Shown piece after piece: positions 11,517 through 18,547 of a stretch of 64,000 nt of DNA. The position numbers were made by a program, and so were the translations under genes. The notes below the pieces were generated by a model, which did no database searches, was not told the DNA's origin, and saw nothing but the letters and a program-made list of their open reading frames with translations. Position 1 is the first letter of the stretch. Every line of letters starts with the position of its first letter. Source of the stretch: Demetria terragena DSM 11295. GTDB taxonomy: Bacteria > Actinomycetota > Actinomycetes > Actinomycetales > Dermatophilaceae. The stretch spans positions 124,001-188,000 of the forward strand of contig NZ_AQXW01000002.1 of NCBI RefSeq assembly GCF_000376825.1, written 5' to 3'.

Positions 11517-12377
11517 TCAGGGTTGGGTCAGAATCTCAGGACCGGATTCGGTGATGAGAATGGTGTTTTCGAACTGAGCTGACCATTGACGGTCTTTGGT
11601 GACCGCGGTCCAGCCGTCATCCCACAGATCCCACTCTGGTGTTCCGAGGTTGAGCATCGGCTCGACGGTAAACGTCATGCCTGGTTCGATGACGTCGGTG
11701 TAGAGGGGCGCCGCGTCGTAGTGCGGGATCACCAGGCCGGAGTGAAAGGCGTCGCCAATGCCGTGCCCGGTGTAGTCGCGGACGACGCCGTAGCCGAAGC
11801 GGCGTGCATAGGACTCGATAACGCGGCCAATGATGTTGACCTGCCGCCCGGGCATCGCGGCCTTGATTCCCCGAAGCATGGCCTGCTTGGTGCGCTCGAC
11901 CAACTCGGTGACCTGCGGTTCGGCCTCGCCGACGATGAAGGTGGCGCAGTTGTCGCCGTGGACGCCGTTGATGAATGCGGTGATGTCGATTTTGACGATG
12001 TCGCCGTCCTGCAGCGGCCGGTCATCTGGGATGCCGTGGCAGACGACCTCGTTGACGGATGCGCACAGCGACTTGGGAAAGCCGCGGTATCCCAGCGTGG
12101 AGGGATAGGCGCCATGGTCCAGCAGAAATTCGTGGCCGACCCGGTCGAGATGGTCGGTAGTGACTCCCGGGACTGCCGCATCGCCAGCAGCCCGAAGGGC
12201 CTGGGCTGCAAGGCGCCCAGCGATGCGCATCTTGTCAATGGTCTCGGCGTCTTTGACGTCAGGCAGGCGCGGTGCGGGCGGCTCGTCGAGGCCGACGTAG
12301 GGCGGTCGAGTGATGCGATCCGGGACCGTTCGGAGCGGGCTCACGCGCCCCGGTCGGATGGGGGTGGAGGTCGGCAT
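11517..12377 (-). CDS. map: Methionine aminopeptidase, type I
   Basis: A 286-residue type I enzyme that removes the initiator Met from nascent proteins. The dinuclear metal ligands are visible: Asp in 'IDITAFINGVHGDNC' (two Asp), His in 'YTGHGIGDAFH', Glu in 'TFTVEPML' and Glu in 'AQFENTILIT'. The N-terminal about 40 residues ('TPIRPGRVSPLRTVP...') form the short extension seen in actinobacterial MetAP1c. The ATG at 12377 gives the normal length; an earlier frame start would run into the divergent promoter. Confidence 0.94.
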   Translation of the reverse strand: MPTSTPIRPGRVSPLRTVPDRITRPPYVGLDEPPAPRLPDVKDAETIDKMRIAGRLAAQALRAAGDAAVPGVTTDHLDRVGHEFLLDHGAYPSTLGYRGFPKSLCASVNEVVCHGIPDDRPLQDGDIVKIDITAFINGVHGDNCATFIVGEAEPQVTELVERTKQAMLRGIKAAMPGRQVNIIGRVIESYARRFGYGVVRDYTGHGIGDAFHSGLVIPHYDAAPLYTDVIEPGMTFTVEPMLNLGTPEWDLWDDGWTAVTKDRQWSAQFENTILITESGPEILTQP

Positions 12378-12400: not shown

Positions 12401-12430
12401 TTGACGCGGCGCTTGCCGCGCCACGATGAT
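12401..12430 (+). promoter_or_regulatory. Promoter of the carbohydrate operon
   Basis: TTGACG (12401-12406), an 18-bp spacer and GATGAT (12425-12430, four of six matches to TATAAT) lie in the map/kinase divergent region. The repeat operator begins at the next base, so it covers the transcription start. Confidence 0.55.
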
Positions 12431-12456
12431 ATCCAAGTAAATCCAACCAGATCCAA
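12431..12456. promoter_or_regulatory. Three direct repeats, candidate DeoR-family operator
   Basis: ATCCAA occurs at 12431, 12441 and 12451, exactly 10 bp apart (TTGGAT on the other strand). Direct repeats one helical turn apart are typical operators of DeoR/GlpR-family repressors, and the operon's last gene encodes one. Position right after the -10 suggests repression by blocking initiation. Confidence 0.65.
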
Positions 12457-12472
12457 CACAGGATGCGTGCGA

Positions 12473-13804
12473 ATGCAGGAGTTACTCGCCGGGCTTGACG
12501 TCGGAACCTCCTCAGTCAAGGTGGCGTTGGTGGACGCCGCCGGCGTGGAGGTCGCCCACAGCCGTCGACCGACGCAGTGGATTCGCACCCCCGATGGCGT
12601 CGAGGCTGATGCCGCCGCGATCCTGAGCGCGAGCCACGAAGCGCTGGAACTGGCGGTTAACCACGTGCCAGACGCCAGGATCGTCGCGGTGGGTGTGGCG
12701 AGCATGGCTGAGGCTGGTGTCCTGGTCGATCGCGACGGGAGGGTCCTGGCTCCCGTGATTGCCTGGCACGACCGGCGTGACGTTGCGCAACTCGACGACC
12801 TGGTGGCTCAACTCGGCGGGAGATCGTTCAGCCAGATGACGGGCCTGCCGGTGTGGACTCAATGGAGCCTGACCAAGCACCGGTGGATGGTCGACCACCT
12901 TCCGCAGGTACGAACGGCGGCCCGCAGATACGCCATCGCCGAGTGGGTGGTGCGTGGTCTCGGCGGAAATCCAGGCACCGAGTTGTCGCTCGCTTCGCGC
13001 ACGGGCTGGCTTGGGTTGCGCTCGAAGCAACTGTGGCCCGAGGCCGTGGAATGGTCTGGCGCGACCCCAAGCATCTTGGCTGACGTGGTCCCGGCCGGAA
13101 CTCCCGCTGGCACTATCGGGGTCGACCACCCTGTGTCGCAACTTCGGGGCGCCGTCCTGACTGTCGCCGGGCACGACCATCAAGCGGCCGCCGTCGGTGT
13201 GGGTGCGACGAGCGATCACGCCGAACTCGACTCCTGTGGAACGGCCGAGGCATTGGTGCGCACCATTCCGCCGGACCTGACGGAGGCCGCATTGGATGCT
13301 CTCACCGGCGCGGGCGTCACCGTCGGGTGGCACGTGGTCGCCGACCGGTGGAGTGTCTTAGGTGCCACCGAGGGCGGGTTGACACTGCAGACAGTCATGC
13401 AGCGGCTCGGCGTCGCTCGGGAACAGATGGCGGCTCTTGACGTCGAGGCGAACGGGCGGGGTTCATCACCCACCAGCATTCAGGTCGGCGCGTCCGGAGA
13501 CGAGGTGGTGATCGCCGGTTCTCAAGAGCCCGCGGATGTCTGGTCGGCTGCCATCCGCACCGTGACCGATCAGGCTCACGCGCTGAGCGAGACCATCAGT
13601 CGGGCGGCCGGTCCGCGCGGTCGTCTCGTGGTCACAGGGGGATGGTCGAACAGCGCGGCACTCATGGCCGCCAAGCGCGCCGCATTCGGGCCAGTGGACC
13701 GGGTCGCGGTGACCGAAGCGGGCGCGAGAGGCGCCGCTCTCATGGCTGGCCTGGCGGCCGGGACGTACGCCCGCCCGAGCGACTTTCCCGTCGCCGAGGG
13801 CTGA
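12473..13804 (+). CDS. FGGY-family carbohydrate kinase
   Basis: A 443-residue kinase of the FGGY family (usually 480-520, so on the short side). 'AGLDVGTSSVKVALVD' at the N-terminus is the ATP phosphate motif, 'IAWHDRRD' near residue 100 carries the catalytic Asp region, and 'VVTGGWSNSAAL' near 380 is the C-terminal FGGY signature region. It phosphorylates a sugar or polyol in the cytoplasm. It is the first gene of an operon with an aldolase, a PfkB kinase and two dehydrogenases, so a ketose is the likely substrate. ATG 12473 lies after AGGA at 12460; GTG 12467 is an alternative. Confidence 0.82.
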   Translation: MQELLAGLDVGTSSVKVALVDAAGVEVAHSRRPTQWIRTPDGVEADAAAILSASHEALELAVNHVPDARIVAVGVASMAEAGVLVDRDGRVLAPVIAWHDRRDVAQLDDLVAQLGGRSFSQMTGLPVWTQWSLTKHRWMVDHLPQVRTAARRYAIAEWVVRGLGGNPGTELSLASRTGWLGLRSKQLWPEAVEWSGATPSILADVVPAGTPAGTIGVDHPVSQLRGAVLTVAGHDHQAAAVGVGATSDHAELDSCGTAEALVRTIPPDLTEAALDALTGAGVTVGWHVVADRWSVLGATEGGLTLQTVMQRLGVAREQMAALDVEANGRGSSPTSIQVGASGDEVVIAGSQEPADVWSAAIRTVTDQAHALSETISRAAGPRGRLVVTGGWSNSAALMAAKRAAFGPVDRVAVTEAGARGAALMAGLAAGTYARPSDFPVAEG

Positions 13805-13861: not shown

Positions 13862-14707
13862 ATGGCCCTCGTCACGACCGCTGAGATCATCGACACCGCT
13901 CGCGCTGCGGGTCAGGGCGTCGGTGCCTTCAACGTGATCACCCTCGAGCACGCCGAAGCCATTGCCGACGGAGCGCGCGAGGCGCAACAGCCCGCGATTC
14001 TGCAAATTAGTGAGAATGCGATCCGCTTTCACGGCGGTCGGCTACGGCCCTTGACCGCTGCGGTCGCCACGCTCGCCCAGGAGTCACGGGCCAGCCTGGC
14101 CGTGCACCTGGATCACATCCAGGACGAGTCCTTGCTGCACCAAGCAGCAGGAACGGGCATCAGTTCGGTGATGTACGACGGGTCCACCCTCGAGTACCGC
14201 GAAAACGTTGCCACCACTCGCGAGGCCGCTAGCTGGGGTGCCGAGCACGACATCTGGATCGAAGCTGAGCTCGGCAAGATCGGCGGAAAGGACGGAGCAC
14301 ACGCGCCCGGGGTGCGCACCGATCCGGCCGAAGCCGTTGAGTTCGTCCGGGCCACAGGCGTGAACGCGCTCGCCGTCGCGGTGGGCAGTTCCCACGCGAT
14401 GCTGGACCGTACGGCGACACTCGACCTTGACCTCATTGGACGGCTCGCGGCAGCGTTGCCCGTCCCACTCGTACTGCACGGATCCTCAGGAGTGCCCGAC
14501 GAGACGCTCGCCGCGGCAGTGCGGGCAGGCATGGTGAAGATCAATGTCGGCACCGCCCTCAATATCGCCTTCACGGGGGCGGTTCGTCAGACACTGGGCC
14601 ACGATGAGTCGATCGTCGATCCGCGCAAGTATCTTCTGCCGGGTCGAGAAGCCATGGCCGCCGAGGTAGCGCGCCTCCTGAGCATTATCGGGATGGCCGC
14701 ACGGTGA
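13862..14707 (+). CDS. Class II ketose-bisphosphate aldolase (GatY/KbaY/Fba-like)
   Basis: A 281-residue zinc-dependent aldolase with the size of GatY/KbaY. Zinc and catalytic residues appear in 'VHLDHIQDE' (Asp-His, about residue 82), 'GSSHAM' (His, about 179) and 'LVLHGSSGVPDE' (His, about 206). The phosphate-binding 'INVGTALNIAF' follows. It splits a ketose 1,6-bisphosphate into DHAP and glyceraldehyde 3-phosphate; tagatose and fructose bisphosphates are the usual substrates. AAGGAG precedes the ATG at 13862. It overlaps the next gene by GTGA. Confidence 0.88.
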   Translation: MALVTTAEIIDTARAAGQGVGAFNVITLEHAEAIADGAREAQQPAILQISENAIRFHGGRLRPLTAAVATLAQESRASLAVHLDHIQDESLLHQAAGTGISSVMYDGSTLEYRENVATTREAASWGAEHDIWIEAELGKIGGKDGAHAPGVRTDPAEAVEFVRATGVNALAVAVGSSHAMLDRTATLDLDLIGRLAAALPVPLVLHGSSGVPDETLAAAVRAGMVKINVGTALNIAFTGAVRQTLGHDESIVDPRKYLLPGREAMAAEVARLLSIIGMAAR

Positions 14708-15699
14708 GCGAGGACAACGCACCCGCATCGATCATCACGGTGACGGCCAATCCTGGCTTGGACCTGACGTACACGATGGGCGTGGATGGCGGAGAAGACG
14801 CCGACCTGCGCCGAGCGCAATCGTCGACCTTGGAGGCGAGTGGCAAAGGCATCAACGTCTCGCGCGCATTGACCGCGGTGGGCGTGCCGACGGTCGCGGT
14901 TCTCCCGGTTGGCGGGGCCACCGGACGGTGCCTGGTCGATCTTCTGGATGCGGACGGGGTGGCCTACCGGGCCGCAGCGCAGGGGGCCTGGACGCGGATC
15001 AATACCTCGGTACTAGCCGCCGACCAGAGTGTCAGCAAGGTCAACGGTTCCGGCGGCGTCCTTGAAGAGCATGAGCAGGAGCGCCTTCTATCGGAAGTCG
15101 ACCAGGCCCTGAGTGACACTGGTGCCACTGGCCGGCGGTCGTGGCTGGTGGTGTGCGGCTCTCTTCCACCAGGTGCCACGTCAGAGCTGGTGCGCGAGCT
15201 CGTACGCTTGGCGCGCCGCCACGAATTCAGTTGTGCGGTGGACCTTTCCGGAGACGCACTACGTGTGGCGCTGCAGGAGGGTGTGGACTTGGCCGCTCCG
15301 AACCAAGCCGAACTTGGCGCGGTGAGTTCCGCGGTGGCGGCCTCGGCAACGCCGACTGAGCTAGCCGACGCCGCGCACGCGCTCGCTGTGGATCACGGCA
15401 CCCGGCTCCTGGTCACCCTCGGGGCCGATGGGGCGCTGTATGCCGACGGCGAGCGGGTGCTGTTCGGCAGCGCTCCCGCGCTCCAGCCCATCAACACAGC
15501 CGGCGCTGGCGATGCACTGCTGGCCGGCTGGTTCGCTGATGGCGGCGCGACGGAGGAACGACTCGCTCGAGCGGTGCGATGGGGCAGGTCTGCCTGCCTC
15601 TCGCCGACCACGGTCGACGAGCGACCCGGCCTCCGCGACGATGCCGAGGTGCGAGTCCTCACAGTCGGCCCCACTCCACGACAGAAGGTGAACCCATGA
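14704..15699 (+). CDS. PfkB-family sugar phosphate kinase (1-phosphofructokinase/tagatose-6-P kinase type)
   Basis: A 331-residue ribokinase-fold protein starting at a GTG that overlaps the aldolase stop. 'TVTANPGLDLTY' at the N-terminus and 'ASGKGINVSRAL' near residue 46 are the FruK/LacC-type substrate motifs. 'PINTAGAGDALLAGWFA' near 263 is the anion-hole and catalytic Asp signature. It should phosphorylate a ketose monophosphate to a bisphosphate, feeding the aldolase next to it. Which phosphate isomer it uses cannot be read from the sequence. Confidence 0.86.
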   Translation: MSEDNAPASIITVTANPGLDLTYTMGVDGGEDADLRRAQSSTLEASGKGINVSRALTAVGVPTVAVLPVGGATGRCLVDLLDADGVAYRAAAQGAWTRINTSVLAADQSVSKVNGSGGVLEEHEQERLLSEVDQALSDTGATGRRSWLVVCGSLPPGATSELVRELVRLARRHEFSCAVDLSGDALRVALQEGVDLAAPNQAELGAVSSAVAASATPTELADAAHALAVDHGTRLLVTLGADGALYADGERVLFGSAPALQPINTAGAGDALLAGWFADGGATEERLARAVRWGRSACLSPTTVDERPGLRDDAEVRVLTVGPTPRQKVNP

Positions 15700-16712
15700 A
15701 GGCGGCTGTTGTCACCACACCGGGGAATATCTCGATTGAGTCGATTCCGGACCCAACTCCAGGGTCGGGTGAAGTTGTCGTCGAGGTTGCCGCGTGCGGA
15801 GTGTGCGGCACTGATCTGCACATCTTCGACGGTGAGTTCGCGCCACGCTTCCCGATCGTGCCCGGGCACGAGTTCGCCGGAGTGGTGGTAGCTCTCGGCG
15901 CCGACGTCTCGTTCATCACGGAGGGAGATCGTGTCGCGGTCGATCCGTCATTGCCGTGCCATGCTTGCCGCTACTGTCGGCAAGGGCGAAGCAATCTCTG
16001 CGACAACTGGGCAGCGATCGGTGTGACCGCTGATGGCGGCGCCGCACAGTATGCCGTTGCGCCACAAGGGAATTGCGTGCGCATTCCCGAGGCGGCACGT
16101 CTGGAGGACTTCGCCCTGGTGGAGCCGTTGGCCTGCGCGATCAGCGGCATGGACGCACTCCCACGCCGACCCTCTGAGCACTACCTGATCTATGGGGCGG
16201 GCACGATGGGTGTTCTGATCGCTGGCATGGCGCGTACCTCGGGAGCGGCTTCCGTCACCGTGGTCGAGCCGCGCGCTGAGCGCCGGCTCGGCGTGGAGTC
16301 CCTGACCGGTGCAGATCTAGCCGTGGCGTCGTCGGATGAGGCTGATCGTCGCGATTGGGACACGGTCATTGATTGCACCGGAGTTGCGGCGGCCATCGAG
16401 GACGGGCTGTCTCGGGTCGCCAAGGGCGGCACGTACTTGCAATTTGGCGTGCCGCACACCGGAACTCGCGTCGAGATTGATCCTCATCGCGTCTATCAGC
16501 ATGAGATCACCATTGCCGGATCGATGTCGGTGCGGAACAGTTTTGAGCGTGCTGTCGACCTACTCAGTCATGGCGCCCTTGATCCCCGCCGCATCATCAC
16601 CGCAGAGTTTGCCCTCGAGGAATACCGCAGTGCCCTCGAGGCGGTGCGCTCCGGTCAAGGTCTGAAAACCCAGGTCATCGCCACCGGCACGCCCCCACGC
16701 AGCATCGACTAG
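15696..16712 (+). CDS. Zinc-dependent alcohol/polyol dehydrogenase (MDR)
   Basis: A 338-residue medium-chain dehydrogenase; ATG overlaps the previous stop (ATGA). Catalytic zinc ligands: Cys in 'CGVCGTD' (residue 37) and His-Glu in 'PGHEFAG'. The structural zinc loop 'CHACRYCRQGRSNLC' has all four cysteines. 'YGAGTMGVL' is the NAD(P)-binding turn. It resembles the sorbitol/threonine dehydrogenase group and probably oxidises a polyol to a ketose, with NAD as the likely acceptor. Cotranscribed with the kinases and aldolase. Confidence 0.85.
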   Translation: MKAAVVTTPGNISIESIPDPTPGSGEVVVEVAACGVCGTDLHIFDGEFAPRFPIVPGHEFAGVVVALGADVSFITEGDRVAVDPSLPCHACRYCRQGRSNLCDNWAAIGVTADGGAAQYAVAPQGNCVRIPEAARLEDFALVEPLACAISGMDALPRRPSEHYLIYGAGTMGVLIAGMARTSGAASVTVVEPRAERRLGVESLTGADLAVASSDEADRRDWDTVIDCTGVAAAIEDGLSRVAKGGTYLQFGVPHTGTRVEIDPHRVYQHEITIAGSMSVRNSFERAVDLLSHGALDPRRIITAEFALEEYRSALEAVRSGQGLKTQVIATGTPPRSID

Positions 16713-16742: not shown

Positions 16743-17765
16743 ATGGCTGACATTCGGCGGATTGTGGTCGATCGCCACGGCGAGGTAGTGACCGAGCAGG
16801 CGACCATGCCCGAACCCGGCCCACAGGAGGTACGGGTCCGTACGGTGCTCGTGGGAGTCTGCGGGTCGGACACCCACGCTCAGCACGGACGCCACCCACA
16901 TGTCCCGCTGCCCTATGCGCCCGGGCATGAGGTCCTGGGCATCGTGGACGCGGTGGGGGAGCAGGTCACCGACTTTTCTCCCGGGCAGCGCGTGACGGTC
17001 GAGCCGACACTGCCCTGCTGGGATTGCAAGCAGTGCCGGGGCGGGGATGAGAATCTCTGCGAGAACCTCAAGTTCTTCGGCTGCGGCCACGAGCAGGGTG
17101 GAATGGCGCAACTGTTCACCATTGCGGCTAGGCGCTTGCACCACGTCCCGGACGAGCTCGACGATCACACCGCAGCGCTGATCGAACCACTGTCGACGCC
17201 AGTCCATGCCGTCCGAATCGCCGGACCGTTGGAGGGGCGCAGCGTGGCGATCATCGGTGGCGGAACCATCGGCCTCCTCACGCTCGCGGCCGCACGTGCA
17301 GCGGGCGCGCGGCGGGTTGTGCTGACCGACCCACTTGCAGCCAAGCGCGCGCTCGCAGCGGAACTGGGAGCGGACGCAGTCGTCGACGCGGCGGCGCCAC
17401 ACGCGACCGCCCAGATACGTGCGGCTCTCGGCGAAAGCGCGGATGTGGTGTTCGACTGCGTGGCGATCACCCCCACGGTGGCCCAGGGCGTGGAGTTGGC
17501 CCGTAAGGGCGGAACCGTCGCGATCGTGGGCGTACCCACCGACGACCTCGTCGTGCCGTTGCCAATCGTCCAGGATGAGCAGATTCGCCTGCAGGGAAGC
17601 GCGACGTATGTCGCGCAAGACGTCCGCGCTGCAATCGAACTGCTGCAGTCAGGGGCGGTCCCCGCCGACCGCATAGTCACCTCCGAACGCCCGGAAGCGG
17701 AGGCAGCGCAGGCTTTTCGGGACGCGATAAGTGGCGAGCAGATCAAAGTCGTCATTCGGTGGTGA
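16743..17765 (+). CDS. Zinc-dependent alcohol/polyol dehydrogenase (MDR), second
   Basis: A 340-residue paralogue of the preceding enzyme with complete zinc sites: 'GVCGSDTH', 'PGHEVLG' and the four-Cys loop 'CWDCKQCRGGDENLC'. 'IGGGTIGLL' is the dinucleotide-binding turn. Its sequence is clearly divergent from the first dehydrogenase, so they probably act on different substrates or positions, for example successive oxidation and reduction that interconvert polyol and ketose. AGAAGAGGG lies before the ATG. It overlaps the DeoR gene by 7 bases. Confidence 0.85.
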   Translation: MADIRRIVVDRHGEVVTEQATMPEPGPQEVRVRTVLVGVCGSDTHAQHGRHPHVPLPYAPGHEVLGIVDAVGEQVTDFSPGQRVTVEPTLPCWDCKQCRGGDENLCENLKFFGCGHEQGGMAQLFTIAARRLHHVPDELDDHTAALIEPLSTPVHAVRIAGPLEGRSVAIIGGGTIGLLTLAAARAAGARRVVLTDPLAAKRALAAELGADAVVDAAAPHATAQIRAALGESADVVFDCVAITPTVAQGVELARKGGTVAIVGVPTDDLVVPLPIVQDEQIRLQGSATYVAQDVRAAIELLQSGAVPADRIVTSERPEAEAAQAFRDAISGEQIKVVIRW

Positions 17766-18547
17766 CCGATCACCACGGCGGCGATCTCCGGTCGGCGGCT
17801 CAGCGCAGATCCGGGATCGTGCGCATGCTGCGCTCGGCCGGACAGGTACGTGCCGTCGATCTCGCCAACGACCTCGGTGTGACGCACGAGACCGTACGCA
17901 AAGATCTGGTGATGCTTGAGTCGCGGGGCCTGCTCCGTCGAGTACACGGTGGTGCTCTTCCGGTGGAGTCCCTGTCCTATGAGCCGGACGTGAGCGAGCG
18001 GACAGTCCAATCTGAGGAGAAGCGTCGGATCGCTGAAGCCGCGGCAGCTTTGGTGCCCGACCAGGGCGCGGTGCTCCTCGATGCCGGTTCGACCGTTGCG
18101 GCGCTCGCGGACGCTTTTCCGCAGACCGCGCAGGTCACGGTCGTCACCAATGCCCTGCCTATCGCGTTATCCCTTCTTGGGTTTCCGTTGGTATCAGTGC
18201 ACACAGTGGGTGGACGGGTACGCCCCACCACGATGGCGGAGGTCGATCATTGGGCGCTTCGAGCCCTTGCCGAGGTGCGCGTCGACGTTGCCTTCCTCGG
18301 GACGAATGCGTGTTCGGTGAAGCACGGACTGTCGACGCCGGACGATTCTGAGGCGGCAGTGAAACGAGCCATGATCGCGGCCGCCGAGCGCCGAGTGTTA
18401 CTCGCCGACCACACGAAGTTCACCCGGTCATCGGTGTTCACCTATGCCGACCTTTCGGATATCGATGTGCTCGTCACGGACGAGGGCCTGCCCACTGATG
18501 TCCGGCGGGACATCGGTCAATGCGGCGTCGAAGTCGTGACGGCCTAG
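17759..18547 (+). CDS. DeoR/GlpR-family transcriptional regulator
   Basis: A 262-residue regulator (GTG start; a second GTG is next to it). Residues about 10-65 are the winged helix: 'RSGIVRMLRSAGQVRAVDLA' and 'VTHETVRKDLVMLESRGLLR' with the usual 'RVHGGA' wing. The rest is the phosphosugar-sensing ISOCOT fold: 'LLDAGSTVAALA', 'VVTNAL', 'FLGTNACSVKHGLSTPD' and 'LADHTKF'. It most likely represses its own operon and is released by a sugar phosphate intermediate. The direct repeats at 12431-12456 are the candidate operator. Confidence 0.9.
   Translation: MVTDHHGGDLRSAAQRRSGIVRMLRSAGQVRAVDLANDLGVTHETVRKDLVMLESRGLLRRVHGGALPVESLSYEPDVSERTVQSEEKRRIAEAAAALVPDQGAVLLDAGSTVAALADAFPQTAQVTVVTNALPIALSLLGFPLVSVHTVGGRVRPTTMAEVDHWALRALAEVRVDVAFLGTNACSVKHGLSTPDDSEAAVKRAMIAAAERRVLLADHTKFTRSSVFTYADLSDIDVLVTDEGLPTDVRRDIGQCGVEVVTA

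Follow-up and report, generated by a model that had tools for sequence, protein, structure and literature searches.

The analyzed window, a stretch of 64,000 nucleotides from the genome of Demetria terragena DSM 11295, contains a closely packed series of sugar-catabolic genes preceded by an array of direct repeats (Table 1). The gaps between adjacent genes are at most 57 bp from the FGGY-family kinase through the DeoR-type regulator, and from this packing we read the genes as one operon. As had been claimed in the original prediction, it ends with a DeoR/GlpR-type gene. The FGGY-family kinase probably starts at the ATG in position 12473, which follows an AGGA at a distance of nine bases (judged by eye), and the C-terminal domain of this protein is divergent (FGGY_C at 19.8 bits, below the cut-off of 27). 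The PfkB-family kinase scores 213.6 bits against the TIGR03168 model, whose cut-off is 216.4. The gene families suggest a pathway in which a polyol may be oxidized to a ketose, which would undergo two phosphorylations and aldol cleavage. Parts of sugar ABC transporters occur among the neighbors, as do GMC oxidoreductases, and these bear on the question of the substrate; in a family scan of ten long neighboring ORFs, four had no family and one had a nitroreductase match only.

Table 1. Coordinates of the promoter, repeat array and genes in the analyzed window.
Feature	Position	Strand	Basis
Methionine aminopeptidase gene map, divergent bystander across the promoter region	11517-12377	-	TIGR00500, 283.1 bits (cut-off 171.35)
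-35 box TTGACG	12401-12406	+	Sequence; 43 of 44 related loci have TTGAC ahead of the array or overlapping it
Degraded first array copy CCACGATGAT, overlapping the -10 box	12421-12430	+	Placement by the 40-bp matrix from 44 other loci
-10 box GATGAT of the putative promoter, 18-bp spacer	12425-12430	+	Four of six matches to TATAAT
Repeat 1 of the proposed operator, ATCCAA	12431-12436	+	Sequence, shuffles
Repeat 2 of the proposed operator, ATCCAA	12441-12446	+	Sequence, shuffles
Repeat 3 of the proposed operator, ATCCAA	12451-12456	+	Sequence, shuffles
AGGA, putative ribosome-binding site for the ATG at 12473	12460-12463	+	By eye
FGGY-family carbohydrate kinase	12473-13804	+	Pfam FGGY_N 3e-35 (scanned from 12467)
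Class II ketose-bisphosphate aldolase	13862-14707	+	Pfam F_bP_aldolase 1.7e-82
PfkB-family kinase, 1-phosphofructokinase-like	14704-15699	+	Pfam PfkB 4.5e-28
Zinc-dependent alcohol/polyol dehydrogenase 1	15696-16712	+	Pfam ADH_N 3.1e-32 (scanned from 15690; ATG start from the ORF)
Zinc-dependent alcohol/polyol dehydrogenase 2	16743-17765	+	Pfam ADH_N 6e-29, ADH_zinc_N 2.7e-28
DeoR/GlpR-type regulator, proposed to bind the array	17759-18547	+	Pfam DeoRC 2.5e-50, HTH_DeoR 4.2e-13

The original prediction had placed ATCCAA at 12431, 12441 and 12451, behind a TTGACG-18-GATGAT promoter, and both the positions and the spacer length are exact. The array has three exact direct copies at 10 bp, where at least two copies with a 10-11 bp period are expected of a DeoR-family operator of this type. 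Allowing up to three mismatches, the ATCCAA triplet with 10-bp spacing occurs once in the window, compared with a mean of 0.01 and a maximum of one occurrence in 100 shuffles, and once in the whole 3.57-Mb genome. In a motif-free search for any hexamer present in three exact copies at a lag of 8-12 bp, the ATCCAA array was the single case in the window, and none of 30 dinucleotide shuffles yielded a case. The predicted promoter has a weak -10 box, with four of six consensus positions; among the relatives, the best -10 box follows a spacer of 17 or 18 bp in 39 of 43 loci. Most of the promoter spacer in the window is occupied by a perfect inverted repeat, CGCGGC-GCTT-GCCGCG (12405-12420), at the place where most relatives have the first operator unit; by eye, no inverted repeat was seen at that place in the same-family relatives.

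The DeoR protein from the window has matches in 86 of 97 related genomes. Among 40 longer stretches, six (L032-L037) contain the kinase together with DeoR; among these, L033 has no aldolase match and L037 is rearranged. In 33 of the other 34 stretches a DeoR gene is located beside a PfkB gene, an arrangement that we labeled the fruR-fruK type, and in the remaining one (L038) the DeoR gene stands alone. Further loci were obtained by kinase searches in 186, 396 and 394 genomes and by a scan of named genomes, which gave no relative when the window kinase alone was the query and at least 79 loci with alignment A1. The resulting dataset, with the window excluded, comprises 44 loci counted as having a DeoR gene with more than 40% identity at most 6 kb from the kinase and 39 comparison loci with the kinase and no such gene within 6 kb. 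The DeoR gene was observed in 43 of the 44; the exception is L078 (genome G155), where part of the locus reads N. In L102, L111, L116, L118 and L124 the DeoR gene is about 4 kb from the kinase, with other sequence between them. Four loci (L100, L101, L107 and L122) were dropped as duplicates of L076, L075, L077 and L095, respectively, the first three because their contigs are equally long and L122 because its array and upstream stretch are identical; L110 was dropped with just 45 bp upstream, and loci whose kinase match starts after residue 15 were left out of the upstream scan.

Exact ATCCAA pairs at 9-12 bp were found in L001-L031 only at the window's own site, and L032-L071 contained neither exact pairs nor one-mismatch pairs accompanied by a third near copy. 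The exact triplet is likewise absent upstream of the kinase in L032-L037. In these six loci the region upstream of the kinase contains degenerate head-to-tail copies that cover the promoter and recur every 10 bp; L033 and L034, for instance, have four such copies, and L036 has three. Thus, the period and the CAA core are kept in the relatives, and the hexamer is not. Aligned over the 44 loci, the arrays usually consist of four 10-bp units with the pooled consensus AYCCAAYNAW, in which CAA is the strongest part. This pooled motif is broader than the ATCCAA of the original prediction. The second unit, which holds the likely -10 box in most loci, ends in T more often than the other units (0.75). 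The fourth unit is often followed by a GCAA that comes 1-2 bp ahead of the 10-bp phase, as judged by eye (L103, L105, L112, L131, L132, L135 and others).

The array is also tied to the promoter. A TTGAC lies ahead of the array or overlaps with it in 43 of the 44 loci, the exception being L128, which has an array and no TTGAC near it; anywhere in the upstream stretch, TTGAC is found in 43 of 44 loci with DeoR versus 4 of 39 without. Counted from the first T of TTGAC, the first unit begins after 9 or 10 bp in 29 of 43 loci, after 6 or 7 bp in seven, and after 3, 17, 18, 20, 22 or 29 (twice) bp in the other seven; in 32 of 43 it is within 1 bp of a multiple of 10. The same-family operon loci include five at 17-29 bp and a sixth, L078, at 3 bp. 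The matrix built from the 44 loci puts the window array at 12421-12460, and therefore the window units are located at +20 (degraded), +30, +40 and +50. As in the five same-family loci, this is further downstream than in most relatives, where the array spans the spacer, the -10 box and the transcription start. The geometry originally proposed, with repeats over +1, is correct in that the array covers the predicted start, and incomplete in that the spacer and the -10 box are covered too in most relatives. Overlap with a promoter, as expected of a DeoR-family tandem operator, is thus observed for a promoter that is itself predicted.

For a quantitative comparison, up to 200 bp upstream of each kinase gene were scanned on the kinase strand for three ATCCAA copies at lag 10, with a maximal score of 18. 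Scores of at least 12 were obtained in 38 of 44 loci with DeoR and in 1 of 39 without (Fisher 5.5e-16), a contrast that is phylogenetically confounded and in part reflects phylogeny, since the loci without DeoR mostly carry more distant kinases; many of the 44 loci are near relatives, so that the effective number is lower. Scores exceeded those of the locus's own dinucleotide shuffles at p < 0.05 in 36 of 44 and 0 of 39 loci, respectively. The closer negatives L098, L108, L121, L127 and L139 have scores of 7 to 9; in one of them, L121, a DeoR-family gene with 30% identity lies at a distance of 4.7 kb. Another is L098 from Mycolicibacterium sediminis, which encodes a 60%-identical kinase and has no DeoR match in its 17-kb locus and no array; its kinase starts 26 bp behind the end of the ORF of another gene. 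Six of the 44 loci (L095, L113, L115, L125, L126 and L129) score below 12, some of them with variant units such as NNGCAA in L126.

Among lags of 6-21 bp, lag 10 is the best or joint best in 36 of 44 loci for three copies and in 40 of 44 for four copies, the corresponding numbers in the 39 negatives being 6 and 12; for four copies it is the most frequent best lag in the negatives, too (12 of 39). With three copies, the second-highest mean over the 44 loci belongs to lag 15 (12.02 versus 13.39 for lag 10). The repeats are therefore not lost in relatives that keep the operon: loci with the kinase and DeoR keep a promoter array with a 10-bp period. The check that had been proposed, a search for 10-bp repeats near orthologous DeoR genes, bore out the period; it did not bear out the exact hexamer triplet, and the six low-scoring loci also fell short.

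At the genome level, the array is a single site. The 44-locus matrix gives it 28.3 bits (training minimum 24.1, median 39.3), whereas the best match elsewhere in the 64 kb, on both strands and with other registers of the array excluded, has 10.8 bits. A sequence profile built from 43 of the 44 arrays, with L095 and the window left out, matches a single place in the entire genome of Demetria terragena at E <= 10, namely window positions 12427-12457 (E 0.01). Among 18 other genomes, 10 of 11 kinase holders have a profile match at E <= 1 just before the kinase and no second match; nearly all arrays of these 10 genomes belong to the training set, the array of G649 being outside it. The eleventh, G049, has no profile match at E <= 1 in its genome. 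Of seven control genomes, in which the best DeoR protein is of the fruR type, five have no match, G054 has one at 0.73, and G014 has three at 0.31 to 0.94. A regulator gene within the regulated operon, as read from gene packing, combined with few genomic sites is the pattern expected of a local autoregulated catabolic repressor.

The encoded protein belongs to the DeoR/GlpR family, with HTH_DeoR at 49.3 bits (cut-off 21) and DeoRC at 171 bits (cut-off 31.8). In a midpoint-rooted tree of 78 DeoR proteins, 33 fruR-type proteins form one clade (100/98) that includes no array regulator, and the window DeoR groups with the regulators of five same-family operons (99/97). It thus lies outside the fruR clade and is not a member of the fructose FruR subgroup. 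L038, labeled as fruR at first, falls among the array regulators; with it, the label needs two changes on the tree instead of one. This protein (G081:C20) is the second array-branch DeoR of a genome that holds the operon as well; neither an array nor an adjoining operon gene was found in its locus. The fruR-fruK-type proteins are similar to the window DeoR in length class and are 44-54% identical to it, but they form a separate clade of 33, have other upstream sequences and carry R rather than K at residue 48.

Of the array regulators, 41 of 43 have K at this residue; of the proteins labeled as fruR, 33 of 34 have R, with L038 as the exception. In the predicted structural model (mean pLDDT 83.1, lower in the HTH domain), the HTH helices comprise residues 32-39 and 43-55, and residue 48 would lie in the latter, which we take as the putative recognition helix. 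L094 and L143 have R48 and yet possess arrays, so residue 48 is a marker and not the sole cause of the difference. Of 31 upstream regions of fruR-type genes, one scores at least 12 on the forward strand (L060, 14) and three on the reverse strand. The fit to the DeoR family suggested by the original prediction accordingly holds for the array branch and does not extend to the fruR-type paralogs with their other upstream sequences. Upstream of the fruR-type genes (L039-L071), CCCGTTTCTnTTTAC and AACCACAnAAACGGG are recurrent and by eye look like a different operator.

The array is conserved, follows this branch of DeoR proteins and the kinase promoter, and is unique in the genome. Because the relatives that keep the DeoR gene keep similarly spaced repeats at the promoter, the array is very probably where the operon's own DeoR docks. 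The original reading of the repeats as a DeoR operator is supported by their conservation together with the kinase and DeoR and by the single genomic site, the binding itself being predicted from these sequence data. We hold with high confidence an operator model in which the repeats serve the DeoR encoded by the last gene of the operon through head-to-tail HTH domains, promoter occlusion and release by a sugar phosphate, and within which we infer binding, repression, the oligomeric state and the ligand. Each 10-bp repeat would take up one winged HTH domain, and the domains would line up head to tail along a single DNA face. DeoR covering the -10 box and the transcription start would deny RNA polymerase access to the promoter. 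A sugar phosphate arising in the pathway would then bind the C-terminal sensor domain and free the array, and this release would induce both the operon and the regulator itself. The direct repeats are one turn apart and share the orientation of the TTGAC promoter, both before the kinase and at seven extra sites, which fits head-to-tail domains on one face, and the position of the array over the spacer, the -10 box and the start fits repression.

The alternative that survives best, with a modest chance of being correct, is that DeoR binds the array with an effect other than plain promoter occlusion, either activating transcription or forming a loop that joins the region to the divergent map. 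The intergenic region is indeed common to the operon and map, and many relatives have a divergent aldolase gene with the array between the two genes. However, the array occupies the -10 box and start in the window, and the spacer, -10 box and start in the relatives, that is, the places where repressors sit. Moreover, according to the available text of a study of Caldicellulosiruptor, 12 of 12 LacI- and DeoR-family regulators compared with mapped transcription starts have their sites either in the leader or across promoter elements, an arrangement that the authors interpreted as repression (PMC8579813).

It is improbable, somewhat more so than activation or looping, that the array, while a genuine operator, serves a different transcription factor whose gene lies elsewhere, with DeoR acting on other targets. 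Compatible with this are the array of L078, where the DeoR gene was not seen in the partly N-masked locus, the same-branch DeoR of L038 without an array in its locus, and the fact that the binding of DeoR to the array is a prediction. Against it, the array tracks this DeoR branch near the kinase; L098, with its similar kinase, lacks both DeoR in the locus and the array; and the sole site in the genome directly precedes the DeoR-encoding operon, as expected of a local regulator. An action of the repeats in RNA, as a leader or translation element, is very improbable: the three copies in the window are located about at and after the predicted +1, in the leader, but 36 of 43 relatives have an array that starts 6-10 bp downstream of the first T of TTGAC and thus upstream of the expected start, and the period of the array equals one helical turn. 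Finally, chance repetition within a promoter, conceivable for three hexamers whose exact triplet was not found in relatives, is rejected by the shuffles, the single genomic occurrence and the conservation of the 10-bp period, and has a negligible probability.

Within the preferred reading of the array as the operator of the operon's own DeoR, we tentatively consider a further possibility, slightly less probable than its opposite: the array may act as a ruler with four registers for four DeoR domains in the same orientation, lined up head to tail with one domain to each helical turn, and may slide between lineages mostly by about whole turns while repression is kept. If so, this DeoR branch would assemble on DNA without two-fold symmetry.

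The tandem-repeat type of operator is already known in the DeoR family, and the window array is a further instance of it. IolR of Bacillus subtilis, a DeoR-family regulator, similarly recognizes tandem direct repeats with a CAA-containing unit, WRAYCAADARD; it differs in the 11-bp unit and in controlling inositol genes. Another example is provided by the DeoR-family regulator RhaR of Chloroflexus aurantiacus, for which the available text of the original study describes an EMSA test of a 38-bp region in which four TCGAAA sites stand in tandem and, for DeoR-family RhaR motifs in general, imperfect direct repeats with a 10-11 bp periodicity (PMC3870299). As far as that text goes, RhaR resembles the window DeoR as a local DeoR-family regulator of a sugar operon with a tandem direct-repeat operator, and differs from it in the repeat (TCGAAA versus AYCCAA) and in the regulated genes (rhamnose genes versus FGGY kinase, aldolase and PfkB); the comparison covers the operators and the operons (PMC3870299). 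DeoR and CggR of B. subtilis, carbohydrate regulators from the SorC family, are described in the available text as tetramers on repeat-bearing operators (PMC11229326). CggR with DNA (8r3g) is the fifth by fold to the window DeoR, although SorC is a different family. In the available text on VdtR of Brucella, a DeoR-family regulator, no repeat motif is described. Among the matches listed from the open-licence literature, no paper was recognizable by its title or the start of its abstract as dealing with this operon.

The closest fold to the window DeoR is that of E. coli DeoR (7l6l, the four top chains), and no DeoR/GlpR-family entry besides 7l6l is named among the 50 folds listed. A PDB sequence search also gave 7l6l as the single match, over residues 84-241, the sensor part. 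For this sole close solved relative found, the sequence match is confined to the sensor part, and the array is a clean test case for the reading of direct repeats by DeoR/GlpR proteins. Its regularity and its breadth in actinobacteria make it a good case for experiment. The array provides a sharp and testable DNA motif for the DeoR branch, which occurs in many actinobacteria (Mycobacteriaceae, Micromonosporaceae, Streptosporangiaceae, Pseudonocardia, Leifsonia and others).

Additional candidate targets were revealed by a matrix scan of both strands of loci L032 and later. Arrays were found before GMC-oxidoreductase genes at L103:6953 (-), L106:13591 (-) and L120:6999 (-), before a solute-binding-protein gene at L119:7894 (-), at the matching place in L123:497 (-) and L125:7892 (-), and about 340 bp before an FAD-reductase gene in L112. 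At all seven extra sites (L103, L106, L120, L119, L123, L125 and L112) TTGAC directly precedes the array. These arrays suggest a small catabolic regulon in some lineages, and those before GMC-oxidoreductase genes suggest a pathway with FAD-dependent oxidation of a sugar or polyol; the GMC-oxidoreductase and solute-binding-protein targets may help to narrow down the substrate. In L119, L123 and L125 the second array is divergent and near the kinase array, so that the two stand back to back. Outside the training set, further matrix hits above 14 bits are L112:16564 (+, 19.4) and L169:6665 (-, 15.6), the former located before, not behind, a TTGACA.
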